DNA of 64,000 nt from Pezizomycotina sp. ARF18. Taxonomy: Eukaryota > Ascomycota. Below, one piece after another: positions 9,013 through 62,117 of this stretch. How positions within the stretch are numbered: the stretch's first letter is position 1; every line of letters begins with the position of its first letter. Both the position numbers and the translations under genes were made by a program. Under the pieces are notes generated by a model. The model was not told the origin of the DNA, searched no databases, and was given only the letters and a program-made list of their open reading frames with translations. Location: assembly GCA_002224055.1 (NCBI GenBank), contig AZLU01000083.1, positions 19,326-83,325 on the forward strand, in the 5' to 3' direction.

Positions 9013-9742
9013 ATGGTACGTCTATACAAAACCGTCAAGAAGTTCTTCCGTACACGTCGAGCAGTTGGCCGCGTCAGGTCAAGCAAGACCACTGCTTCCA
9101 CCTCGAAGAAAGTATCGCCGATCCAAGCACTACCACTAGAGCTATTCTACGCGATCGTCGCAGAACTCCCAGAGGTCGACAAGCAATGTCTGCGCATCAC
9201 CTGCCGCTCGTTTAGGTCGCTAATCCTCCCTCTGACACGAACTGACGACATCGAAGACGACGAGGTGGCTCTCGTTCAACGGCTTATCGTTCCCGGCAAT
9301 GTATTCCACGGTCGGGATGAGGCGCTGTGCTTCTCGTGCTACAAGATCAAGGACAACTCGCGGTTTCCGATGCCGGCGCTGCGATTAATGAGCGGACCGA
9401 TATGCGAGAATTGCATCGCGACAAGTGTACGGCGAAACTGGCAGGGAGGATACGAAGTGACAAACGCCGGAGTAGAACTATACGTCTGCAAGACGTGCAA
9501 GTTTGCCTTGTTTGAAGATCAGGGGAGGGTTTGTAAGAATACGGAACACGACGGCGACCGAGACGGGATGGAGCTGTATCAGAGGATATGCACTTCCTGC
9601 TGCAAACAGTGCAAAGAAGAGGTACGTACTATTTCCCACTGAGCAGGACTGCTTATATTGAAGCTAATTTCAATTTATCCAATGTTTTCCGCAGAAGGAG
9701 AGGATTGCCGCTGCTCAAGCAGAAGAAGCGGTCGATACATGA
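9013..9742 (+). CDS. FZ7: intact type B F-box/Cys-rich protein
   Basis: Predicted 218 residues from two exons (9013-9621, 9695-9742). The intron 9622-9694 has GTACGT..CGCAG ends and an AGCTAAT branch-like site. A basic N-terminal extension (MVRLYKTVKKFFRTRR) precedes the F-box at about residues 39-75 (LPLELFYAIVAELPEVDKQC, LRITCRSFRSLI). Then come PGNVFHGRDEALCFSC, GPICENCIA, a type B module ELYVCKTCKFALF, and ICTSCCKQCKEE. Exon 2 adds KERIAAAQAEEAVDT. The F-box should bind Skp1 in an SCF ubiquitin ligase. The eight or more paired cysteines suggest a zinc-binding, probably substrate-recognising, domain; this is inferred. It is the best reference sequence for the family in this window and lies just upstream of its paralogue FZ8. 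Confidence 0.88.
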
Positions 9743-11840: not shown

Positions 11841-12430
11841 TTAGTTCCTATTTAATCTTCCTAATCCTTTTGTTTCCTCAATTGGCAAAGTTTTTTATTT
11901 TATTTTATTTTATTTTATTTTTTTTTTTCTTTTACCAGCGGGATATATAGTATGGATTAACGGCCATCTTGACACTGTAGATCAACATGCGGCGGATTTA
12001 CTCGCCAAATTGCCCGGAGCCCGTTTCGCAGACCGCCGGTATAGGCATCAAGCGTATATCAAATGATTCTAACAGGAACCCAAATTTTTTTGAAAAAGAA
12101 ATATTTATAACCTTATACTTACACCTGAAGTATACACTAAGATTTATTAGATATATTATATTGCCCCTCAATTGGAACTTATATAGCTCGTTGGATCACA
12201 TACTAGTAGAACGTTTCTTTCATAGGCAACACTCATACTTCATGATACATGGAAATGATATCGGAAATTATATTACGTATCTTCTAGATCTTGACGTCTT
12301 GACTAGGTGTGTCGTAATATACAGAGGTCGAATGACATTAAAAAGCGTGAAAAGAATATATTACAAAATCGTTATGTGAAGATTGATGATTGGGAAACTC
12401 TTGTTTCTTCTTACATCCGCAGCACTATTT
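11841..12430. other. Intergenic with TTTTA repeat
   Basis: A (TTTTA)n run with trailing T tract lies at about 11889-11931. The rest is AT-rich with no recognisable gene. Confidence 0.4.
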
Positions 12431-13972
12431 TTACGCAGCAGGTTTGCAAGTCCCCGAGACGCAGTTTCCGGAGCAGCACGACTCGTTGTAATAACAGGTC
12501 TGAGCCGTGAAGTCGTTAGGGATGCAGCCGCACGTCCTCGACGAGGAATGCAGTAGCCCTTGCAGCACTCATGGTTAAGCTGGCAAGGGCCGCCGATGTC
12601 GAAGCAACACGTCCTCGAGCTGTTGAGGACGTACGGCAGGCACTTGGCTTGCGGGTTGCAGCACTCCGAGTCCGATGTGCAGGCCGTCTGGAGCGCATTG
12701 AAGACGGAGTCGGGCAGGCAGCACTTCTGGTTCTGGCAGAACCGGCTGTCCGGGCAGGTCCCTTGGAGCAAGGCTTCATGCAGGTCCGGGTACCCGACAC
12801 GTCGCAGAATCCGTCGCAGCACTCGTCGTTCGAGGAGCAGGTGGTGGTCGCGCCGCTGGCGGTGCAGTCCTTCACGCAGACTCCCCCCGTACAAGAACTT
12901 CCGGAGCAGCACTGGTCGCTGGAGGAGCACGTGGTGAGGGAGCCGGCTGCGATGCAGCATTTGCCGCCGGAGCAGTTTCCATCGCAGCAGTCTCCGTTGC
13001 CGGAGCAGGTCGCGGATCCACCGCTCAGGGTGCAGGCCGCTTTACAAACTCCACCAGAACAGTTGCCAGAGCAGCACTGGGAGTTGGAAGAGCAAGGGGT
13101 GGCGGCATCGTTGGCGATACAGCAAAGCCCGCTCACGCAGGTTCCATCGCAGCAATCTGAACCGGCCGAGCAAGCTGTGGAGGCTCCGCTCAGGGTGCAT
13201 TGTGCTTTGCACACACCGCCGTCACAGTTACCCGAACAGCACTGAGAGCTCGAGGTACAAGCGGTCGTGGCGCCGTTTGCGATACAGCATTTTCCACCTG
13301 AGCAATTATTATCGCAGCAGTCACCCGCCTTGGAACAAGAGGTAGAAGCGCCGCTCTGGATGCACTGGTTGGTCGGAGGAGGGTTTGGAATGACAGCCGA
13401 GCACTTGTTACCGGAGCAGTTGTTCGAGCAGCATTCGGAGTTCGAAGTGCACTTGTAGTCGAACCGTTCGCGATACAAGAGGGAGGCGGCGAGGACGTGG
13501 CGGCGGTACACCTATTGTACTTGCAGTTGTTCGAGCAGCACTGTGAGTTGGACGTACATTTCAGGATCGATCCGTTGGCGATACAGGCGGAGCCTTTGGC
13601 TTAGCGGCGCACTTATTTCCGTAACCGCAGTAGCCGGAGCAGCACTGCGAGTCGGACGTGCACCTCTGCGAGGCGCCGTTGGCGATGCAGGGAGGAGGCG
13701 GGACGATGCAGTATCCGCGGACGCAGGAGGTTCCTGAGCAGCACTGGGAGTCAGAAGAGCATCTCTCCCCGCGGCCGAGGCGGCAGGTCTTCGTTTTGAG
13801 TCGCAGGTGTAAGCCGGGTTGCAACAGGGCTTCTTGGACGAGCAGCTCTGCCAGCTGGCGCACAGCTGCGGGCGTGTAAGTGAGCGTGGCCGTCACGGTG
13901 AGCCGAGGCGTTTACCGTCACTGCAAATGACGATACCGCTAGAGCCACGAGGATCTGGTAAAAAGACCGCAT
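12431..13972 (-). pseudogene. Secreted protein with 14 C-x5-CC-x3/4-C repeats, frameshifted
   Basis: ATG at 13972 opens MRSFYQILVALAVSSFAV, a signal peptide ending near VNA-SA. About 14 copies of a disulfide-type unit C-x5-C-C-x3/4-C follow, for example CTSNSQCCSNNC, CSAGSDCCDGTC, CSSNSQCCSGNC and CYYNESCCSGNC. CIANGA/CTLSGA linkers alternate between them. The last unit ends CVSGTCKPAA with stop TAA at 12431-12433. The longest uninterrupted frame is 13511-12516. At least four frame changes are needed to read the whole protein. The pattern resembles knottin-like or Dickkopf-N-like cysteine repeats, but I cannot name a family. Acts outside the cell, if made. The long low-complexity repeat invites indels, both real and technical. 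Confidence 0.7.
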
Positions 13973-34483: not shown

Positions 34484-35650
34484 ATGTTACTCGGCGAAAT
34501 CCTGTTGAGCTTTTCCTTTCTATCACTGGTCACCTCATCGAAGCTGATAAACAAGCACTTCGAATCACTTGCCGCGCCTTCCGGCGCTATATCCCATTAC
34601 CCCAGGAGCTAGTAAAGATCTATGGGGTCGAAAATCCTTTTTTCAGTAAGGACGTTATGGAGCGCCGCAGCTTCCTACCGCGCTTGCTAAAACCCGGCAA
34701 CGTCTTTGCCGGAAGAAACCTCAAGGTGTGCTGCGGCTGCTTAAAGCTCAGCATCCGTCCCGCTTCCCATGGACGGCCTGAAAATCGACGACTTCGACAT
34801 CTGCGGTGAGTGCCTCCTCGACCTCTTTCGCCCCAGTTAGCGATTCCGGCCTCGAGGAGTTGAACCTCGCCCGTTGCCACTCCTGCCACTGGTTCGAGGA
34901 GGTCTTTCGAGGCTCGAGTTCCCCACCCGTGGCACGGGTTGGGAACCCTATGGGGAATCCGTGGTGCTGTGTAGTAACTGCATCTTCGATAAGCTTTGGG
35001 CAGTCGTAGCCAAGGGCATAAATTTGGGCACCCCACTATCGGGGAGTATTACATGTGTGTTAGCTGCGGGGCGGGGGGGAGCGACGGGAGATGCACGGGG
35101 AGTGCGTCGACATCGACGACTTCTTCGAGCCTGAGAGGCTGGACCCCTTGATCCCGTACAGGAGGATCTGCCACGCTTGCCATTGTAGCAACTGCTGGGA
35201 TGATGAATGTCCTGGTTGGCCCGAGTGGGCACTGAAGGAGCATAGATATCACTTTTATGACTTTGATCCGGATGGGAGGTGTTATGAGTGTAATAGAATC
35301 CGTAAGTTTTGATTTCATCTATCCCCCCCTCCCAAACCTATCTTTAGCTGGGCGGGATTCATTGATGCAATTTTTATTGTTTATTTTTTTGTCAATAACT
35401 GACGACATTATCCATATCCCCTGGACGCTCTAGACGACGAAGAAACTAAGTGCTTCCTTGTTGAAGGTTGCGACGAGGATGATTACATCGCGCTTGAATA
35501 TTTCCCACCGGGTACGCACAATATTTAATCCTCACTTTTTGATTGCATGTTGTCACTGCCGGGATTTACGTACTAATATATGTTTGTGGTACAGCCGCTG
35601 GCCCGCACAAGCGTCAGACCACCCTTGATGCGTATTTCAAGAAAGGGTGA
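34484..35650 (+). pseudogene. FZ21: type A F-box/Cys-rich copy with C-terminal PIP-box exon
   Basis: ATG at 34484 is one base out of frame with NPVELFLSITGHLIEADKQ and LRITCRAFRRYIPL. LLKPGNVFAGRNLKVCCGCL, FPMDGLKIDDFDICGECLLD, ARCHSCHWFEE, VLCSNCIFD, and RRICHACHCSNCWDDECPGW follow across several frames. The end GRCYECNRI is joined by two introns, 35302-35433 (GTAAGT..TCTAG) and 35512-35594 (GTACGC..GTACAG), both phase 1. Exon 2 is acidic (CDEDDYIALEYFPPG). Exon 3 (35595-35650) ends GPHKRQTTLDAYFKKG, a PIP-box (Q-x-x-L-x-x-Y-F). The last three exons are perfectly in phase with one another. Upstream frameshifts suggest decay or assembly indels. Suggested role: SCF adaptor that can contact PCNA; inferred. 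Confidence 0.78.
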
Positions 35651-35996
35651 ATGGTAAATCTAGAGCCATCCTACCAGTGGAACCTTTTAAAGTCGGGAAA
35701 GTCAGATACTTTCACCCTTAATTGTTTGTTTATTTGTCTATTGCCTTGTTATTTTTCTTTTCGCCTGACTTTCTTATATTATGATCAATTGCTATAATAA
35801 AATATTGTTTCGTTAGCTTTGAGCGCCCACTTTCAAACTGATGTATCTAGCCAGCATCATTTAACTGCCGTACAGTGGTTCACCTGACCAACCACCGAAG
35901 AGCTCGTTACTAGATAGTATCGTTCTTTTCGTTTTGTCTGAGCATTTTTTTTATATCATCTTCTGTTGCAATTGACTCAGATACTAGTATTTCCAA
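35651..35996. other. Intergenic between convergent FZ21 and FZ22
   Basis: 3' regions of two convergent PIP-box copies; no feature recognised. Confidence 0.35.
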
Positions 35997-37101
35997 TCAG
36001 CGACCCTTATTGAAGAAGTTATCCAAGCTCAATTGGCGTTGTGGTGGTCCGGCAGCCAAAGAGAAAGTTGCCAGCTTAATATCTTTGCGGTACTTGATCG
36101 ACAGAAGAAGCCATCGTACCTCGAGGAAATAACTGATCGTAATGTATTTCATCGTCCTCTTCTGCTTCGGAGCAGTCGAATCTCTCGTCGTCTTTCGAAA
36201 GCAGAAAGGCCCGCGGTAAGAACGATGATTAGTTGACTTCCAAGAGCAAGAGATGGTAACATGGGCCGGAAAGAAATTTATTGTAAGGGCGTCTTACGTA
36301 TCTTATGGCAGGCGTAGCAGCGGCCATCATCATCACACATGTAGGAGCGAAAGATGAAAGTTCCCAGTACTCGCTGATCACCGATTTTGGCCACGCTTTA
36401 CAGGTTGGTCCTGGCAGCGCCGAAAATGGCACAGTTCGCATATCCTGGTGTAAGGCTCCATATCCGGCTCTGGAGCCTCTATCCACTTGCATACCGCGTA
36501 CGTGCTTTCTTTACCACCTGGGTCGCAGCATTCGGCACACGTCCAGGTCTCGCGAATGTAGGTGTAGCTGCACTTGTGACCCGGATACACGGCCTCGCAG
36601 AGGAGCGGATGACGCAGGCGCGGCACCGCCTGGCATGATTTGGATTAGCGCCGCTGTATAGATTGACGGTGGCGGTACTGCCAATTTGTCGCCGCAGCGA
36701 AAGCAGATCGTCGTATCGACGCCCAGGCAGACGAAAAATAGCCGGCACAACGGAGGTGTCCACGATTCAGGTTGCGCATATTTCCTGGTCGTTGATGGTG
36801 AAACCTTCCGCCGGAAAGTGCCGTTTGTCGCCTACCCTAGAACAACCTCCGCAGACCTTAGCGCTGCTACCGAAGAACTCGTTACCTTCGGTGAACAGGC
36901 GCAGAGGGAAACTTCGGCGTTCGATACTTCGGAGGAGAAGATGAGAGGTCTCTCCCGATTCTCCGATCTTTGGAGCCGTCGAGCTAAACGTATGAGACGC
37001 GTAAATGAGCGGCAGGCGATGCGTAGGGATTGTCGGTCCTCTTCATTGAGGTGCGACGCGATGAGGAGGAAGAGCTCGACGGCGATGTTGGCGAGGGGCA
37101 T
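35997..37101 (-). pseudogene. FZ22: type A F-box/Cys-rich copy with PIP-box exon, nonsense and splice-site loss
   Basis: ATG at 37101 gives MPLANIAVELFLLIASHL, NEEDRQSLRIACRSFTRLI. After a shift: LRLFTEGNEFFGSSAKVCGG, FTINDQEICAT, where the next Cys codon is TGA. ICFRCGDK, RICELCHFRRCQ and GRCYACHKI follow in various frames. An intron with GTAAGA donor leads to an acidic exon (CSEAEEDDEIHYDQLFP). A second intron (36119-36056) ends in GG where relatives have AG. The last exon (36055-35997) reads GPPQRQLSLDNFFNKGR, a PIP-box. The nonsense codon and the lost acceptor point to true decay. It is convergent with FZ21, its closest structural relative. Confidence 0.75.
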
Positions 37102-37829
37102 GCCGGTGGAGAAGGTAATTAGATTGCGGGTGATAGATGAACCTTTGGTAGCAGAGAAAGGGGGGGGTGGAGGTTTATGGCGAGTGGGAACGATCGAGAT
37201 ATTTGCCTGAGGTCGGATGCGTGTGTATGAAAATTCTTTAACTTATACCGCTAATAAATTTTTTTAAATAAGTTCAAGAAAAGGGGAAAAAAAAGGGCTG
37301 ATTGATAGTGTAGTCTGGAGACCTTCTCAAGTCTCCAGACTATGACAGTACGAGGCGGAAGAAAAGTAAATAAATTAAAATAAGATAAAATAAAATAAAT
37401 AAGATTAGAAATAAAAATAAAATCAATGAACTTGAAGGAAGTACGGTGCTGGAAATCAAGTAACGATAGCCAGGCGGCCCCGTCTTTAAGATGCCTATTC
37501 AAATATACCCACTTAAACCTATTTCGACTGCTATATAGAATGTGGCAACAGTATCCGAGCTTTGTATTAAAACGCTGATTTCTTAGAAACGACTCTCCGA
37601 GTCCTTAAAAGCTAGTTCTTTGAAATTAGAGAAGCCCTCGAGTGCGAAGCCCGAAACCTCAGGAAGCTGAAGCTTACTATCCACTATATACTCAAGTTAT
37701 CGAAGCTGAACTTGTGACCCTTCGATATGCTCTAGCGTAGAGCATTGAAGAGGCAGTCGTAGCATAACCTCATTTCGTCCCATTCCATTTCCCAAATTTT
37801 GCTGCGGCTTAAGGGGATTGAATTATCGT
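37102..37829. other. Intergenic with a 12-bp hairpin
   Basis: Contains the perfect hairpin at 37311-37342, next to an AAAAT/AAATA-rich stretch (37370-37425). No gene seen. Confidence 0.45.
37311..37342. repeat. Perfect 12-bp hairpin
   Basis: TAGTCTGGAGAC, an 8-base loop (CTTCTCAA), then GTCTCCAGACTA. Could form a stem-loop in DNA or RNA. Role unknown. Confidence 0.7.
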
Positions 37830-38310
37830 ACGAACCCTTCTCACACCGAAGCAGACTGTCTCGGCGGCAAGGTGATAATTCCGCCACCTGTAAGGGCTCC
37901 TACGCTGGTTCAAGTGCTTGAAGACACATCGACAAGGCAGACGTGGCAGATCTCAAGATCGTCGATCTTCAACCTCGACCGGAAACCTAGAATCAACTGC
38001 GACACCCTGGCAGCCCCTGCACGTCTTCAACCCGGCCTCAATCCCGCGAAGACGTTACCCTTCCTGAACAAACGCGCAACAAAGCTTCTGCGTTCCCAGG
38101 AAGCGCTCGTCGAAGATCAACGGCCCGGTGTTATACCAATCCTTCGCTGGCCGCGGCGAGAGCAGGATGAGGCGTTTGAAGCGCGGCAGGTGATGCGAAG
38201 AGATTGCTTGTCGGCGGCATCGAGGTTGGAGGTGATGTCGAGGAATATTTCGACGGGGATATGGTTGAACGGCGAAGTTTGTGGCTCGTCTGCATTGCTC
38301 CCTGGGAACT
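37830..38310 (-). pseudogene. FZ23: F-box/Cys-rich relic
   Basis: F-box NHIPVEIFLDITSNLDAADK then QSLRITCRA, after which one base is missing (CRAFKRLILL in another frame). RLFRKGNVFAG, LKTCRGCQGV and KIDDLEICHVCLVD follow in separate frames. No C-terminal module or PIP-box exon is readable toward 37830. No in-frame ATG lies close to the F-box. The canonical GTAAGT site near 38381 (minus) and a CCCTCAG site suggest a 5' intron, unusual for this family. Confidence 0.55.
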
Positions 38311-38713
38311 CGGGGCGCTAGAGCGTCTTTGACTCGTGGCTAATATTCTGAGGGAAAGGATGGATGATGATAGCTGACGATACTTACCGGTGACAACGCT
38401 TGTTCGTGAATATCTAGATTCACCTTATTCTTCAATAGAGCCTTGATAATTCGTGAACTTTGTGTTCAATTGCCTGCCTTGTATTTTCTTTATTTTCTTT
38501 ATTGTTTGTAGTTGATTAAGTATACTTAGAGAATTATTTGTGTGTTCCTTCTGTTTTGATTGTTGGCAAGGAACTATTGTGAAGATAAATTGGAAGGCGA
38601 AAAAGTTTGCACAGGAAAAAAAAATTTGAAATGCCAATTAATCAAATAAATTACTAATACCCACGTGCTCAACAGTGCCTCTTTCCTAGCCCGTTTTCGA
38701 GCAGGGAGCACCA

Positions 38714-39884
38714 TCATGCTGTAGCTTTTTCTTCATATCGTCCGTTCTTGAAGAAGGCATCAAGGGTCAGTTGGCGCTTCGGTGGACCGGTAGCTATACA
38801 GGTACTCGTTAGTGGATATCTTCATCAACTTAAATATCGCAGCCGAGGAAAACAATGGTTATGGGGAACGAAGCGGAAAGGACGTCCTCATACCTGGAGG
38901 AAAGAACTCAAGACCAATATAGTCGTCCTATGGCATCCTTCAACTTCACTACACTCCAATCTTCGTCGTCCTTTGTCGAGCAGAAATTGCCGCAGTAGTT
39001 AGTATATGCATTTTCCATAGCGTATATGGCGAGGAGGTGAAGGGGAAAACATGAAGGGGTACGGGTAACTACTCACGGATTCTATTGCATTCATAGCGGC
39101 GACCTCTAGATCGAAAGCGTAGAAATGTTCCCTGTTCTCTTCGACAAACTTGTCCGGCCAACCAGGACATCCGCAGTCGCACAGTGATCAAGGTGACACT
39201 CCAACAGACCCTTCATATGATGGAGCCATATCCGCGGCGCCGAATATCTTCACCATATTCACACTGCGTATGTGCTCTCCGTATCTGTTACCATGCCACA
39301 GGTCATACACGCCCAATGATCTCCGATGCCAGGAAAGTGAATTTATGTCCCTTCGCGTCATCTTCGCAATACTTCCATGACGCAATCGCAGCAAAAGTAC
39401 ATGAGACTCAAGTACTTTTTCCCACTGCGTGCCCGTGGTGACAAGACGAAAGTAAAAGTCGCCTCCGTTACAGAGACAGCAGCGGAATGGACGTAAATAA
39501 TCGGGCGCTCTGGCTGTGACATCTCGGACGTTAGCAATTGAGGATGAAGGGCCGCATATGTCCTGGTCATCGATTTTGACGCCGAAGAACGAGAAACGGG
39601 GTAGCCGATTTTCAGGCAGCAGCTGCAGGCCTTGGAATTCTTCCCGGCGAAAACGTTGCCCTGTTTGAGTAAGCGTGGAGGGAAGCCCCGCAATCGAGGA
39701 CGTCCTTGGAGAAGAGTAAAGGTCCGGTGGCTCCGTTGTTGGGCCGCGTGCCGGTGGATATACTCTGAAAGCTCGGCAGGTTATTCGAAGTGCTGCTTGT
39801 CAGCCTCGTTCAGATCATCAGTGATCAGCAAAAGGAGTGCCACGGGAAGGAGGCGAAGGTGGGCGGTATTTGAGTGTTCTCCAT
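38714..39884 (-). pseudogene. FZ24: type A F-box/Cys-rich copy with PIP-box exon
   Basis: ATG at 39884 starts MENTQIPP; after shifts VALLLLITDDLNEADKQ, LRITCRAF, RLLKQGNVFAGKNSKACSCC and FSFFGVKIDDQDIC follow. Type A remains (CHLDHC, CPGWPDKFVEENREHFYAFD) and YECNRI end exon 1. The donor is GTGAGT, and intron 1 has a perfect TACTAAC branch. Exon 2 is acidic (DDYIGLEFFPPG). Intron 2 (38893-38794) has CACTAAC and ends TATAG. Exon 3 (38793-38714) reads GPPKRQLTLDAFFKNGR and ends EEKATA. Its PIP-box (Q-L-T-L-D-A-F-F) is textbook quality. Several shifts upstream. Confidence 0.75.
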
Positions 39885-40160
39885 GGTCTGCGGTCGTTAA
39901 GGGGGTGTTGGATTAGCCAGCCACCGAGGAGAAAAGAGAGATGAAGATTGTGGAGCCTATTGAGAGGTTTTGTTAGTGGTGTATATTCGGCGTCTTTGGC
40001 TTCTGTCGCTTCTTCGTCTTCGTCGTGTTTGCGTTCGGCACTAATAGGATGAGCTTTTAATGAGGATGCTGGATAAAAGAAATGAAATTGTTAAATTTAA
40101 AACAATAAATCAATCAATAAATAAATAAATAAATAAAATAATAAATAAATAAATAAAAAA

Positions 40161-40211
<51 letters not shown>

Positions 40212-40488
40212 ATTAAATAAAATAAATAAATAAATAAATGACACCCCTTATTTTCTATTCTATTACTTATATTTGCGGGAATCTTCGCACACATCAGTAC
40301 TTCAAGCAGATAACAAAACTTGTTTCTATTGAAAATCAACGCAATACCGTTCGAACATACACTGAGGATTTTCTTCCAATCCTGCCATCTCTTATCCAGT
40401 ACTGCATTACATTAGCTCATACTAATCGACATCACGACCTACTCCGCCTCCAGCAGAAATCAGAGTTCTCTATAGCGTATTGACGCCA
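39885..40488. repeat. Intergenic with AAAT microsatellite
   Basis: An imperfect (AAAT)n array spans about 40106-40239. Flanking sequence is divergent 5' DNA of FZ24 and FZ25 without recognised genes. Confidence 0.7.
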
Positions 40489-41306
40489 GAATGAGCTCCC
40501 CAAGTTCCCCGTCGAACTTTCCTCGACATCGCTTCCTACCTCCGCTTCGCGGACAAAGAAGGCTACCCTCACCTGCACTCGTTCAGGAACATCCTCCTTC
40601 CGCGCCTCTTTCGGGAGGGGAACCTGTTCGCTGACAGGGACGTCAAGGCCTGCAGCGTCTGCTTGAAGGTTGGGGATCGCGAGAAGCACTTTCCGATGGA
40701 GGGTTTCCAGATCGACGGTTACGACGTCTGTGTGGATTGCATTTGCTGCATGCTCTGCGACTGTCTCCCGAGGAGTGTTGACAAGATGGACTTGGACAAA
40801 TGCTGGGAATGCTATACCCGCGCGAAGAAGGTGTTCAATTCCCATTAACGGAGTCATGGACCTTGACGAGGCTTACAGGCTTGTCTGTGAGCACTGCCTC
40901 CTCGACATCGTGCGTCAAACGCTACTAGGGACACCAGCAGAGCTATAAGGGGTTGAATTCTATACGTGCCGCATCTGCTGGTCCGGCATCGGTTTGCGAC
41001 AATGTGGATACGAGTGGCGGGGGTGAAGGGGACTCTGGTGAAATGCACACACCTTGTCAGGGAGAGCTGATGCCTAAGGTTCTGGAAGAGATGAAACCCT
41101 ACACGAGATCTGCCAGGGCTGCATATGCGTATATGCGGCGAATACGAATGTTCCGGATGGCCGGAGGCTTTTGGGACCACTCGTCGATGAGGAGTATCGC
41201 ACCGAGGAGAGTGGCGGTGATGATTTTTCTGAGGACGGTTCAGCCGCGGACGACGAGGAAATCTATTATCCAGAAGAGCGCGACAATGAAGAAGAATCCA
41301 AATGAC
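40489..41306 (+). pseudogene. FZ25: type A copy with truncated F-box and acidic tail
   Basis: Reading ELPKFPVEL, one T is missing in GAACTTTCC (about 40523), after which FLDIASYLRFADKE follows. The LRLTCR half of the F-box is absent. It runs directly into RNILLPRLFREGNLFADRDV, KACSVCLKVG, FPMEGFQIDGYDVCVDCICC. LDKCWECY, LVCEHCLLD, FYTCRICWSG and, in another frame, HMRICGEYECSGWPEAF follow. The end is acidic (GGDDFSEDGSAADDEEIYYP). No PIP-box exon was found. Several shifts. The internal F-box deletion (about 20 residues) is not a homopolymer effect. Confidence 0.65.
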
Positions 41307-42109
41307 GAGGATGGAATCGGTCGATTACGGGACACCACCGATGAGGAAAAGCCCTCGAGCCAAGATAATTCTGGGGATGAAATTTATCAGAAGAGGAGGC
41401 GTCCCGTCGAGTAGTAGCATATGCTAAGAACAACCCGAATCTTGACGGGTACGATACGTTGTCCACTCTGCTTCCATACGGTCTGCTTTGTTTCAAGGCT
41501 ACTAATTACTATGAATTACTCATCTGCCGCCAATAAACAGGTCGGACATCTTGCTCTCAATCTCCTTGAATCATATTTGCTAAACCAACTGAAGGAAATT
41601 ATATATCGGTACGAACAGCGGATCATTAAAAGAAGATGAATATAACTTATGGGATATATGTGGTCACGATAGGTTCCTTCCTTAGAATCGAAATCCCAAT
41701 TGCCATTTCAAAGATGTTTGCTCTGGAGACCGTCATGGGGCTTATAATTTTATCCAATCAGCATTTCATTTGGCCTATTCATTGACAAGTCAGATATGGT
41801 ATAACTTTGAAGTTATATTGTTGTTAATTAAGAAAAAAGGTCCAAAAGAACACATTGAGAATTACAAAATTATTCACTCTTTAATTACGCTATTAAAGAT
41901 TAAATTAAGAAATTTTTGAAGTTGGTATATGTACGACGACTCTTGGAGACCATAAAAGTTGACTGGATGGATATTAGAGCCAGGACTTCCATTCTGCTCT
42001 GTTTTCTCCTCTCTGCTCTTTTGCTTCTCATTTGTTTCTCTTCCCACTTTTGTTTTTTTTTTAATATTGTGAGTTATCCTGGATTGAAGCAGGCTCTCGC
42101 GAGAACCCA
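41307..42109. other. Intergenic
   Basis: A second frame of the FZ25 tail runs on to about 41413. Otherwise AT-rich with no feature. Confidence 0.3.
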
Positions 42110-43640
42110 TCAGTACTTCCTGAAAAAGGCGCCCACAGTGAGTTGGCGTTTCGGTGTCCGCGGCTACATGTAGATATACAACACATTAGTATTAGCAACC
42201 GAAAGCCATGCTTTACAAGCGCTGAAAGTAAAAAGCATCATTGGAAGAGAAAGAACGCATACCAGATGGGAAACGTTCGTTTTCGGGAATGGCCTCATCG
42301 CCTATAAAATCATCGCAGGTCCAATATTTATCATCTACAAGGAAGTTATCAAGAAGTATTAGCTATCCGTTGGCCTGGCATATTATTTTACAGGCAATAT
42401 CATACTGATACAGTATGAAGGTAATGGTTGGAACGGAATGGAAACGTTCACATACGTATCTCGCCGCACAAAAGGCAGCGGCCCTGAGCGTCGCACTTGT
42501 AGAAATATCCGTTGTGGATATCGATGACAGAGGAAACGTTCGTTTCGGAATGGCCTCATCGCCTATAAAATCATCGCAGGTCCAATTTATCATCTACAAG
42601 GAAGTTTATCAAGAAGTATTAGCTATCCGTTGGCCTGGCATATTATTTTACAGGCAATATCATACTGATACAGTATGAAGGTAATGGTTGGAACGGAATG
42701 GAAAACTTCACATACGTATCTCGCCGCACAAAAGGCAGCGGCCCTGAGCGTCGCACTTGTAGAAATATCCGTTGTGGATATCGATGACAGACCTGGGCCA
42801 ACCAGTGCACTCGTGGTCGCGGCAGAAGGGGAAATGGCAACTCCTACAGATTCTGATATACGGCAGCATAACTCGGCCGGCGTCGTTTCCTTTTGCAAGG
42901 CGAGGATTCGCAGCCGAATTACTGACGCGTCCGCACTCACTACAAGACTAATGATCGCTGATTGCGGGTGACTGAACTTGTGACCTGCCGTAACGCCTTT
43001 CTGACCGCCCAGAGCACACAATCAGGGCAGATCTTGCCATAACCTTCGACGGTGTCCTCGGGCAGCCAGATGTCATGCCCAGATTAACCTGAGGGTTGTC
43101 TTTTTGTACCTAACCGGGACACCCGACATCGCAAATGTCGAGGACCACCCAACTGCGGATTGCGGCGAAGCATTCGGGAGCCTTGAGATGTTCGCCAAGC
43201 AGGTCGCACAGACTTCTAGGTCGTTGACAGTGAGGTCTTCGAGCGGGAAGTGGCGTTTATCGAAGATTCCCGTGCAGTTGCCGCACGCTTTGAGGATGCA
43301 TCAATCTTTCACGTTCGATAATTTCGTGGGGAGTGGGTTAAAGGGGAAAGAATCATCCTCGATGGTGGGCACGTATGCAATGGCTGCGCCGCGGACGTCC
43401 TACGCGAAATGTTTAAGTTCTCGATGGGCTTGCGCTTCGCCTCCTATTACGCCGGTCATTTCTGCCGGAACGGAATCACAACGTTCGTTATCCTGCAAGA
43501 GCCGCGATAACGAAGGCCTATACGGGAATCCACACGATATATGTTGGAATTGGGGTGCTGCGCCTGGTCTGCCACTGAAGTCGAGGAGAATTTCCGTAGG
43601 TTCTGCGACAAGCCGACGACCGAGGACCGTTGTCGCACTG
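42110..43640 (-). pseudogene. FZ26: type A F-box/Cys-rich copy with PIP-box exon and internal tandem duplication
   Basis: A damaged F-box (PTEILLDFSG, FQHISCG) is followed by LKACGNCTGIFDKRHFPLED, VNDLEVCATCLAN, ICPDCVLWAVRK, ICRSCHFPFCRDHECTGWPR and GRCLLCGEI. A GTATGT donor follows. The segment from the end of exon 1 through exon 2 is present twice (42269-42531 and 42532-42790). In the distal copy exon 2 (YWTCDDFIGDEAIPENERF) is open. Intron 2 (42262-42164) leads to exon 3 (42163-42110) with PKRQLTVGAFFRKY, a PIP-box. One extra base lies before the PIP-box. Several shifts and stops upstream. Confidence 0.7.
42269..42790. repeat. Direct tandem duplication, unit about 260 bp
   Basis: Copy 1 (42269-42531) and copy 2 (42532-42790) are nearly identical. 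They differ by TTTT/TTT, GGG/GG, ATATTT/ATTT, GTTATC/GTTTATC and two substitutions. The unit covers the last part of FZ26 exon 1, intron 1 and exon 2. Confidence 0.9.
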
Positions 43641-60229: not shown

Positions 60230-62117
60230 ATGCTCCTTAGAGGGTTAGTGTTTCTTAACTGGGCGGCGGCTGCGCTCTCACTCGCGATGCCACTAGTTGC
60301 CAGCCAAAATGCGAATTTCACATATGATCGCCACAATTCCTCCTCGATGGAACTCCATCCGGCTCATCGGGGGTCAAATGGACCCCAACGCTCCCTCCGA
60401 GTACTGGTCAAGCGCCTGCAGATGGCAAAGTCAATGGGCTTGAACACCATCTTCTCCTACATCTTCTGGACAATCGAACCGCAACAGGGGCAGTTTACTT
60501 CGAATACCGAAACGACATCGCTACATTTATGCACCTAGCGCAGAAGAAGGTCTCTACGTCGTCCTCCGGCCCGGCCCGTATTATCTGCGGTGAGCACGAC
60601 TGGGGCGGTTTTCCTGCGTGGCTCAGCCAGATTCCCGGCATGCCGTTCGCCAGAATAATAAGCGTTTTTGGACGCTGCTGGAATTACCTTGAGAAATTGG
60701 GTGAACATCTTGGGGAACACATCTCGAAGGGCGGACCAGTATTCATGACGCAGTTGGAGAACGAGTACGGTAGCTTTGGGAATGATAAAGCGTACTTGCA
60801 GGCTCTTGCCGATATCCTTAAAGCCAACTTCGATGGGTTTCTTTACACCAACGACGGCGGTGATAAGGGTATGCTGCGGGGCGGAACGCTCCACGGGGTC
60901 CTCGCAGAAACGACGGCGATCCCAAGACCGGCTTTGCCGCGAGGGATAAGTACGTCACGGACGCTACCATGCTCGACCACAGTTAGATGGAGAGTATTAC
61001 GTCACCTGGATCGACGACTGGGCGCCCGATTCCGCCATCATATCACGTCCGGTAATGCGAAAGCGTCAAAGGAAGTTATAGACGACCTCGACTGGATCTC
61101 GCAGGTAACACTCGTTCAGTATCTACATGTTCACGGTGGAACGAATTGGGGGTTTGAAAACGGCGGAATATGGTCCGGTGGACGACTCAATGCTGTAACG
61201 TCTAGTTACGACTACGGTGCTCCGCTGGACGAGAGCGGCCGGCTACGGAGATTTACCGCGAAATACGGGAGATGATCGCCAAGACGTTCCTACGGGTAGC
61301 ATCCCGGATATACCGACCTTCCTCATTTGACCACATCGACGAGTTCAAGCTGGAGCCGGCGCTATCATGTTCGATGTAGTGCGCGGCGATAAACTGCTGC
61401 AATCGAGTTGCGTACCATGGAAGCCGTCGGCCAATCGTTCGGCTTCATACTGTACGAGCACACCGTAACAAAGCCGTAAGCGGTGCTCTCGCGCCAGGAG
61501 ATGGCCTCGCGACCGTGTTATCGTCTACGTCAACGGCTTCCGTGGCGTAATCGATAAGACGCGCGTGGAAACCTGCCACTGTACAACTAACTTTGAAGGA
61601 AGGCGACGTCCTGCAGCTCTTCGTCGAGAATCTAGGTCGGGTAGACTATGCCAGCAACTCAAGGAGCAAACTAAGGGTATCGTGGGAACGTTTCCGTGGG
61701 CAATGCGACGGTTCTAAAAGGTGGTCTACGTATTCCATCCCGCTGGATAAATTACCGACGCGCTCGCTGGGGATCAGACTAGCGCCCCGGAAATTAAAGA
61801 CGGTCAAACGCCGGTATTTCTATAAGGGGTCATTTAGATTGCCGGAGGGGACGACCAACGATATGAGCGGCGATACGTATATTTCACTGCCGAACGTGTC
61901 AAGGTACAGTATGGGTCAACGGGAAGCATCTGGGACGGTATTGGGTCGTTGGACCGCCAGCAAGTCTATACGTTCCGGGTGTCTGGTTGAATACGGGTGA
62001 TCAGGGAATGATGTTGTAGTGCTCGAGCTTGAGCCTGAGGCCGGCGTTGATATGATTGCGCGAGGGTTGGATACGAGGGAATGGGCTAACCATCCGGATC
62101 CCGATGGTTCTGCTTGA
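60230..62117 (+). pseudogene. GH35 beta-galactosidase, many frameshifts
   Basis: ATG at 60230 opens a signal peptide (MLLRGLVFLNWAAAALSLAM). Conserved blocks then follow across frames: RLQMAKSMGLNTIFSYIFWT, GEHDWGGFPAWLSQIPGMP, GGPVFMTQLENEYGSFG with the acid/base Glu (60763-60765), LDGEYYVTWIDDW with the likely nucleophile Glu (60992-60994), FHGGTNWGFENGGIW, and SSYDYGAPLDESGR. A C-terminal jelly-roll segment follows (TVWVNGKHLGRYWVVGP, SLYVPGVWLN) with stop at 62115-62117. The enzyme would hydrolyse terminal beta-galactosides outside the cell. Length fits the shorter GH35 class (about 620 residues). At least eight shifts are needed, more than in the FZ copies, so this is probably a true pseudogene. 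Confidence 0.82.

Follow-up and report, generated by a model that had tools for sequence, protein, structure and literature searches.

Does a fungal F-box protein family carry its own hook for PCNA? The question is raised by a tandem gene cluster in a 64,000-nucleotide stretch of the Pezizomycotina sp. ARF18 genome (GenBank assembly GCA_002224055.1, contig AZLU01000083.1). In this stretch, referred to as the window, four members of one gene family (FZ21, FZ22, FZ24 and FZ26) end in a small separate exon that resembles a PCNA-interacting protein (PIP) box. The window spans C83:19326-83325, where C83 is one of 408 contigs of the 46.36-Mb genome, whose gene content and short GT-AG introns appear fungal; coordinates given without a contig are window positions, and the contig-wide scans of the array and its tails covered C83:9.5-103.6 kb (~94 kb). 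The interpretation that is favored here, with modest confidence and from sequence alone, is that these copies and a fifth member outside the window form a PIP-tailed subgroup of a tandem F-box/cysteine-module family that would dock an SCF (Skp1-Cul1-F-box) ubiquitin ligase on PCNA. It draws directly on F-box homology, on the motif, on the splice-consistent exons of FZ21 and on a second, double tail of different build.

Exon structure of the tailed copies

The cleanest tailed copy is FZ21, which has the following features.

34489..34602, plus strand: F-box (tblastn E 1.2e-22, a self-match; one of the nine segments of the family test described below)
35160..35301, plus strand: terminal zinc-like (CxxC/GWP) module at the end of exon 1, followed by the donor GTAAGT
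35434..35511, plus strand: exon 2, an acidic linker, followed by the donor GTACGC
35595..35650, plus strand: last exon with the PIP box, AAGPHKRQTTLDAYFKKG-stop, continuing the frame of exons 1 and 2

As assembled, the three exons are joined across introns of 132 and 83 nucleotides, both GT-AG, into one open frame. The spliced frame of 91 residues has the C-terminal end EYFPPAAGPHKRQTTLDAYFKKG-stop, and the joined open frame closes with KRQTTLDAYFKKG-stop. When the terminal module and tail were used together as a genome query, eight matches were obtained, all eight on C83. A Pfam scan of the same module and tail returned no family, and an 87-residue piece with the F-box matches Pfam F-box-like at E 0.034, below the cut-off.

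The features of the other three copies in the window are listed below.

36985..37098, minus strand: FZ22 F-box (self-match; Pfam F-box-like E 0.0021, below the cut-off)
36120..36192, minus strand: FZ22 exon 2, an acidic linker with approximate 5' end, donor GTACGA
35997..36055, minus strand: FZ22 last exon, AAGPPQRQLSLDNFFNKGR-stop, with GG, not AG, at the aligned acceptor
39752..39799, minus strand: FZ24 F-box, partial match (E 5.1e-4 with the FZ21 segment)
38894..38978, minus strand: FZ24 exon 2, approximate at its 5' end and with a broken frame as assembled
38714..38793, minus strand: FZ24 last exon, ATGPPKRQLTLDAFFKNGRYEEKATA-stop, continuing the frame of the 3' part of exon 2
43187..43333, minus strand: FZ26 first zinc-like module, from a short-peptide search
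42714..42866, minus strand: FZ26 terminal zinc-like module, part of it repeated at 42454-42531
42110..42163, minus strand: FZ26 last exon, PRTPKRQLTVGAFFRKY-stop, with an AG acceptor but, in the assembly, a frame other than that of exon 2

The coordinates of these four last exons reproduce exactly those of the original prediction, and all four exons match Q-x-x-[LIVM]-x-x-[FY]-[FY], as it had stated. Its description of the tail as a separate last exon is consistent with the predicted splice sites and frame of FZ21 and of the exon 2-3 junction of FZ24, but not with those of FZ22, with its GG acceptor, or of the out-of-frame FZ26. For the FZ22 tail to be in frame, either the GG acceptor must be allowed or splicing must use an AG further upstream, leaving an intron of 37 nucleotides in the latter case. 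The candidate acceptor of FZ24 intron 1 lacks AG, and stops interrupt exon 2 in that frame. By eye, donors are observed at homologous places in all four window copies. The term "F-box copies" suits the family, in which both F-boxes and C-terminal PIP-like exons are present, but not FZ26, for which a search with short family peptides detected no F-box upstream of the first zinc-like module. The FZ26 region at 42263-42800 is a tandem repeat of the zinc-module end, intron and exon 2.

The fifth tailed member is located outside the window, ~24 kb from the nearest tailed copy, and carries two tails.

C83:85547-85762 (positions 1648-1863 of locus L044): two adjacent PIP exons of the 85-kb member, each with one PIP box

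The first PIP box, GKGRQSTLHSFFDMPK, and the second, FRQRTLDKFFSK-stop, occupy neighboring exons that are in frame across a 91-nucleotide intron (GTAAGC...TAG), resulting in the joined tail DHATSGKGRQSTLHSFFDMPKSRSLPYAFRQRTLDKFFSK-stop. Upstream on the same strand is an F-box match at C83:84899 (E 2.3e-9), and the stretch C83:85103-85150 is similar to FZ21's terminal zinc-like module (E 8.8e-4). A comparison of the double tail with PDB sequences gave AT27789p (E 0.89) as the sole weak match, which is irrelevant. A genome pattern built from the first PIP box was set aside as not specific (94 matches versus 68 in the control; the matches off C83 that were opened are those on C84 and C12). Identical pattern matches at C2:416330, 416554 and 416778 have an exact 224-base spacing, which suggests a tandem repeat.

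Rarity and constraint of the motif

All six tails, four from the window copies and two from the 85-kb member, fit the canonical PIP consensus Q-x-x-h-x-x-a-a (PMC7225939; this and the other papers are cited here from excerpts of their text). In the six frames of the window, Q-x-x-[LIVM]-x-x-[FY]-[FY] has 10 matches, and four of the six that are not tails are poly-Phe. With a preceding [KR] and a stop within 13 residues as added restrictions, five matches remain, the four tails and one poly-Phe; the same restricted expression averages 0.25 matches in 60 Markov-resampled windows and never exceeds 3. Outside C83, in loci totaling 93,951 bases, it is found at three places: two overlap within a single poly-Phe tract, and the third, L060, is a locus that a PIP-like pattern had retrieved. 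A 12-residue weight matrix applied to C83:9500-103600 scores the six tails at 32.4-38.3, followed by poly-Phe at 27.3 and, as the best remaining score outside poly-Phe, 25.3 for KRKRILSAFFRQ (window 58812, minus strand), a gap that is partly circular because the matrix is derived from the six tails themselves. The KRKRILSAFFRQ peptide has a K in the Q position and no near stop. Thirteen further family loci (41,367 bases; 10 off C83 and 3 on it) reach a score of 22.9 at most. Genome-wide, a codon pattern of the FZ24 peptide with up to three mismatches has 20 matches versus 9 in a reversed control; the five on C83 are all tails described here. Candidates elsewhere were rejected: QPRLEHHF at L037 is not among the best 15 of the 24 matches scoring above 20 (down to 20.3), QLTLDAYF on C108 follows a stop and has no F-box by eye, and RQPTFHTYF on C12 has no family feature by eye.

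The four window tails are paralogous and, thus, do not represent four independent events. Among the six tails, the codons for R and Q vary only synonymously, the last F has one and the same codon throughout, F or Y occupies the first aromatic position, and L or V the aliphatic one. Over five core codons in 15 tail pairs, 33 differences are synonymous and 10 change the amino acid, in pairs that are not independent and copies that were found by the motif itself; these counts are only suggestive of constraint on the core residues. Pairwise identity ranges from 7/17 to 13/18 in exon 3 and from 8/21 to 16/24 in exon 2, and the terminal modules of FZ21 and FZ26 share 22 of 48 residues. The selective retention of the motif that had been proposed is not borne out by these values, as conservation of the tail exon overall is much like that of exon 2.

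The F-box family

The family extends well beyond the tailed copies, as seen with a reference copy.

9013..9642, plus strand: reference copy, an open-frame family member that lacks a PIP tail

This copy has at least 50 genome matches, 33 on C83 and the other 17 spread over nine further contigs; several of these may fall in one gene, and only the best candidates were scored. A search of the C83 region with short F-box peptides of the family gave 41 F-box rows, 33 of them at E<0.01. In a Pfam scan of nine hand-picked family segments, FZ21 and FZ22 included, F-box-like is identified in 8/9 (best 3.6e-7) and F-box in 7/9 (best 9e-7), with the member 1 segment scoring 23.3 for F-box against a cut-off of 20.5. 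The whole protein of the reference copy matches F-box at E 0.0025, below the cut-off, whereas its segment alone is above it. A profile of the family segments compared with the PDB identified FBXO31 at E 0.006, followed by DHT03 protein B (E 0.79) and DHT03 protein A (E 5.5). The predicted F-box identity of the family is supported by these matches to the profile that marks F-box proteins; FZ26 shows no F-box in the short-peptide search.

Pfam scans of three open family frames and of the FZ21 and FZ22 pieces detected no helicase domain, and FZ21 is too short for one, as only ~1.16 kb separates its F-box from the stop. The UvrD-type helicase plus F-box combination of the FBH1 family is, thus, not seen. 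Protein searches for relatives found none below threshold among 181 candidates at E<=0.1, 735 at E<=1 or 1455 at E<=0.01. An AlphaFold2 model of 9013-9639, for which no alignment was given, has a mean pLDDT (predicted local distance difference test) of 35.5. Elsewhere in the window, long open frames overlap on opposite strands at 12361-12960 (minus) and 12571-13245 (plus), and the minus frame is cysteine-rich.

Proposed architecture and function

In the arrangement that is favored, an N-terminal F-box would be followed by several CxxC zinc-like modules, and the tailed subgroup would add an acidic linker exon and a PIP last exon. Binding to Skp1/Cul1 is expected of the F-box, substrate selection probably falls to the cysteine modules, and the C-terminal PIP box would insert into PCNA's hydrophobic pocket, docking the SCF at DNA under replication or repair. 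With its two PIP boxes, the 85-kb member could link two subunits of PCNA. Gene expression, contact with PCNA, assembly into an SCF, coordination of zinc and the choice of substrates are all predictions of this arrangement. As for its proposed partner, the genome encodes a PCNA with the sequence QEHLGIPETDY, which we take to be the interdomain loop. A more speculative extension, which we hold only tentatively, is that the cluster is a fast-diversifying tandem array of SCF receptors, some of them held on PCNA by a single or double C-terminal PIP box, that acts as a replication-coupled ubiquitin trap. The variable cysteine modules of such a trap would catch proteins that arrive with newly copied DNA, for example from mobile elements.

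Frame breaks and alternative explanations

The original prediction held that the motif is kept while the upstream frame decays. As a reference for such breaks, 37 of 38 HSP70 rows were used (a lone C10 match was excluded), which gave 31 junctions between neighboring matches. At 20 of the 31, located in five loci (C70, C49, C3, C208 and C303), adjoining matches leave no space for an intron and lie in different frames; relative to the profile, 18 of these breaks have an excess of -1 or -2 nucleotides, and the other two have +2 and -4. The remaining 11 junctions comprise 10 intron-size gaps and one with an excess of 14 (C3). Same-frame HSP70 neighbors are merged by the search, so these counts are selected for frame changes, and some of the loci could be pseudogenes. 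The one match found for the PCNA gene (C56, L040) is also one base short, between KLMDID and QEHLG. Since the same class of loss is observed in five HSP70 loci and in the PCNA gene, the small deletions are likely a property of the assembly, and in an assembly full of them the tailed copies need not be pseudogenes. The frame decay is, therefore, weak evidence that the motif has been kept selectively. This assembly looks unpolished, and pseudogene calls based on frameshifts are unsafe in this genome. At 60230-61275 in the window, a beta-galactosidase-like gene also appears to be frame-broken by small indels.

These results bear on the explanation that the tailed copies are pseudogene remnants of a birth-and-death cluster, now inactive, in which the four neighboring tails are alike only as tandem duplicates. 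Consistent with this explanation, four of the five tailed members lie within 9 kb, FZ26 combines an out-of-frame tail with no detected F-box, and frame switches are many. The small-deletion class shared with HSP70 and PCNA genes, however, suggests that the breaks are largely assembly error, and the tail core falls within the consensus in all six tails although exon 2 has diverged. Inactive remnants are, on balance, considered unlikely. A second alternative is that the PIP-like tail serves a different hub of genome maintenance, such as Rev1, Mlh1 or a related clamp, instead of or besides PCNA. PIP, Rev1-interacting region (RIR) and Mlh1-interacting (MIP) motifs are described as overlapping and able to cross-bind (PMC7225939, PMC7145657), but all six tails keep Q at position 1 and an aliphatic residue at position 4, and this destination appears rather improbable.

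A third possibility is that the tail regulates the F-box protein itself through PCNA-coupled destruction by CRL4-Cdt2, as with the PIP box of FBH1, which works as a degron (PMC13200063). A PIP degron is defined by a TD pair immediately ahead of the two aromatic residues, together with a basic residue at the fourth position past the motif (PMC7225939). A basic residue at +4 is present in three of the six tails (FZ22, by eye, FZ24 and the first PIP of the 85-kb member), while the other three end 2-3 residues after the motif and are too short to have one. At motif positions 5-6, the TD pair is found in none of the six (FZ22, by eye, has DN). Under the definition given in that excerpt, the tails lack the degron signature of CRL4-Cdt2 substrates and would instead be docking PIP boxes, so self-destruction is very improbable. 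Equally hard to credit is the notion that the tail exons are unspliced to the F-box frames and their peptides are chance open frames, given the homologous donors, the in-frame splices in FZ21, FZ24 exon 2-3 and the 85-kb double tail, and the rarity of the motif in resampled DNA.

Several points weigh against the docking of an SCF on PCNA by a tailed subgroup. In FZ21 the frame switches at least five times within ~820 nucleotides (by eye), more densely than in HSP70, so that some true decay may add to the assembly error. The splice site of FZ22 and the phase of FZ26 are imperfect, and for the 85-kb member the in-frame join was computed between its two PIP exons only. The core residues of the tail exon are strikingly conserved, but the exon overall is not strikingly more so than exon 2. 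Only five members are tailed, as compared with the 33 F-box matches at E<0.01, among which FZ26 is not counted, and whole family proteins or longer pieces fall below the Pfam F-box cut-offs. The protein searches above found no orthologue in other organisms, and no PDB chain matched the FZ24 tail peptide. Finally, Rev1 and Mlh1 are possible alternative partners for PIP-like motifs, as noted in the excerpts cited for them.

Comparison with known systems

Dia2 is a yeast SCF receptor that travels with the replication machinery; its tether is a tetratricopeptide repeat (TPR) domain that contacts other replisome proteins, not a PIP box. Within the genome studied here, a close likeness to the tails is in an Exonuclease V homologue (L066, C84:147.3-150.5 kb, minus strand) that contains DRQTTLDTYF, nearly the motif of FZ21. 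In contrast to the tails, this motif is internal to an Exo5-like nuclease that has no F-box match; one piece of the gene matches PF09810 at E 1.3e-4 (22 bits versus a cut-off of 25), and the piece that bears the motif does so at E 0.03. The presence of RQTTLDTYF in an Exonuclease V-like gene suggests that repair proteins may use this form of the motif here.

The two systems that most resemble the proposed one are FBH1 and Cdt2. FBH1 (FBXO18) combines an F-box with its own PIP box and an APIM (AlkB homologue 2 PCNA-interacting motif), and it is recruited to damage by PCNA (PMC13200063). Its PIP box is in a disordered N-terminus, it has a UvrD helicase, and it is a PIP-degron substrate, whereas the family tails are C-terminal exons of a much shorter CxxC protein and have no TD pair. 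Cdt2 is a cullin-ligase receptor whose C-terminal PIP box brings CRL4 to PCNA (PMC6312923); this C-terminal extension is described for higher eukaryotes and as absent in fission yeast (PMC6312923). Cdt2 is a WD40 receptor of Cul4, whereas the family described here would supply F-box (Cul1-type) receptors from a multigene array. As far as the excerpts of these papers go, FBH1 and Cdt2 precede the "new way" of bringing a ligase to PCNA that was originally claimed; they already establish the two halves of the idea, which is new only as a variant. A fungal F-box family with PIP tails is not among the literature matches listed, a negative limited to that search. If the favored interpretation is correct, Cul1-type receptors of this fungus, encoded in a fast-changing array, would carry a clamp hook at the same protein end as Cdt2 does for Cul4, and the array would offer a compact system in which to ask whether a PIP tail alone suffices for a replication-coupled ubiquitin ligase. 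What is different here is that, on a subgroup of an F-box array without relatives found, the PIP exon is C-terminal and, in one member, doubled.

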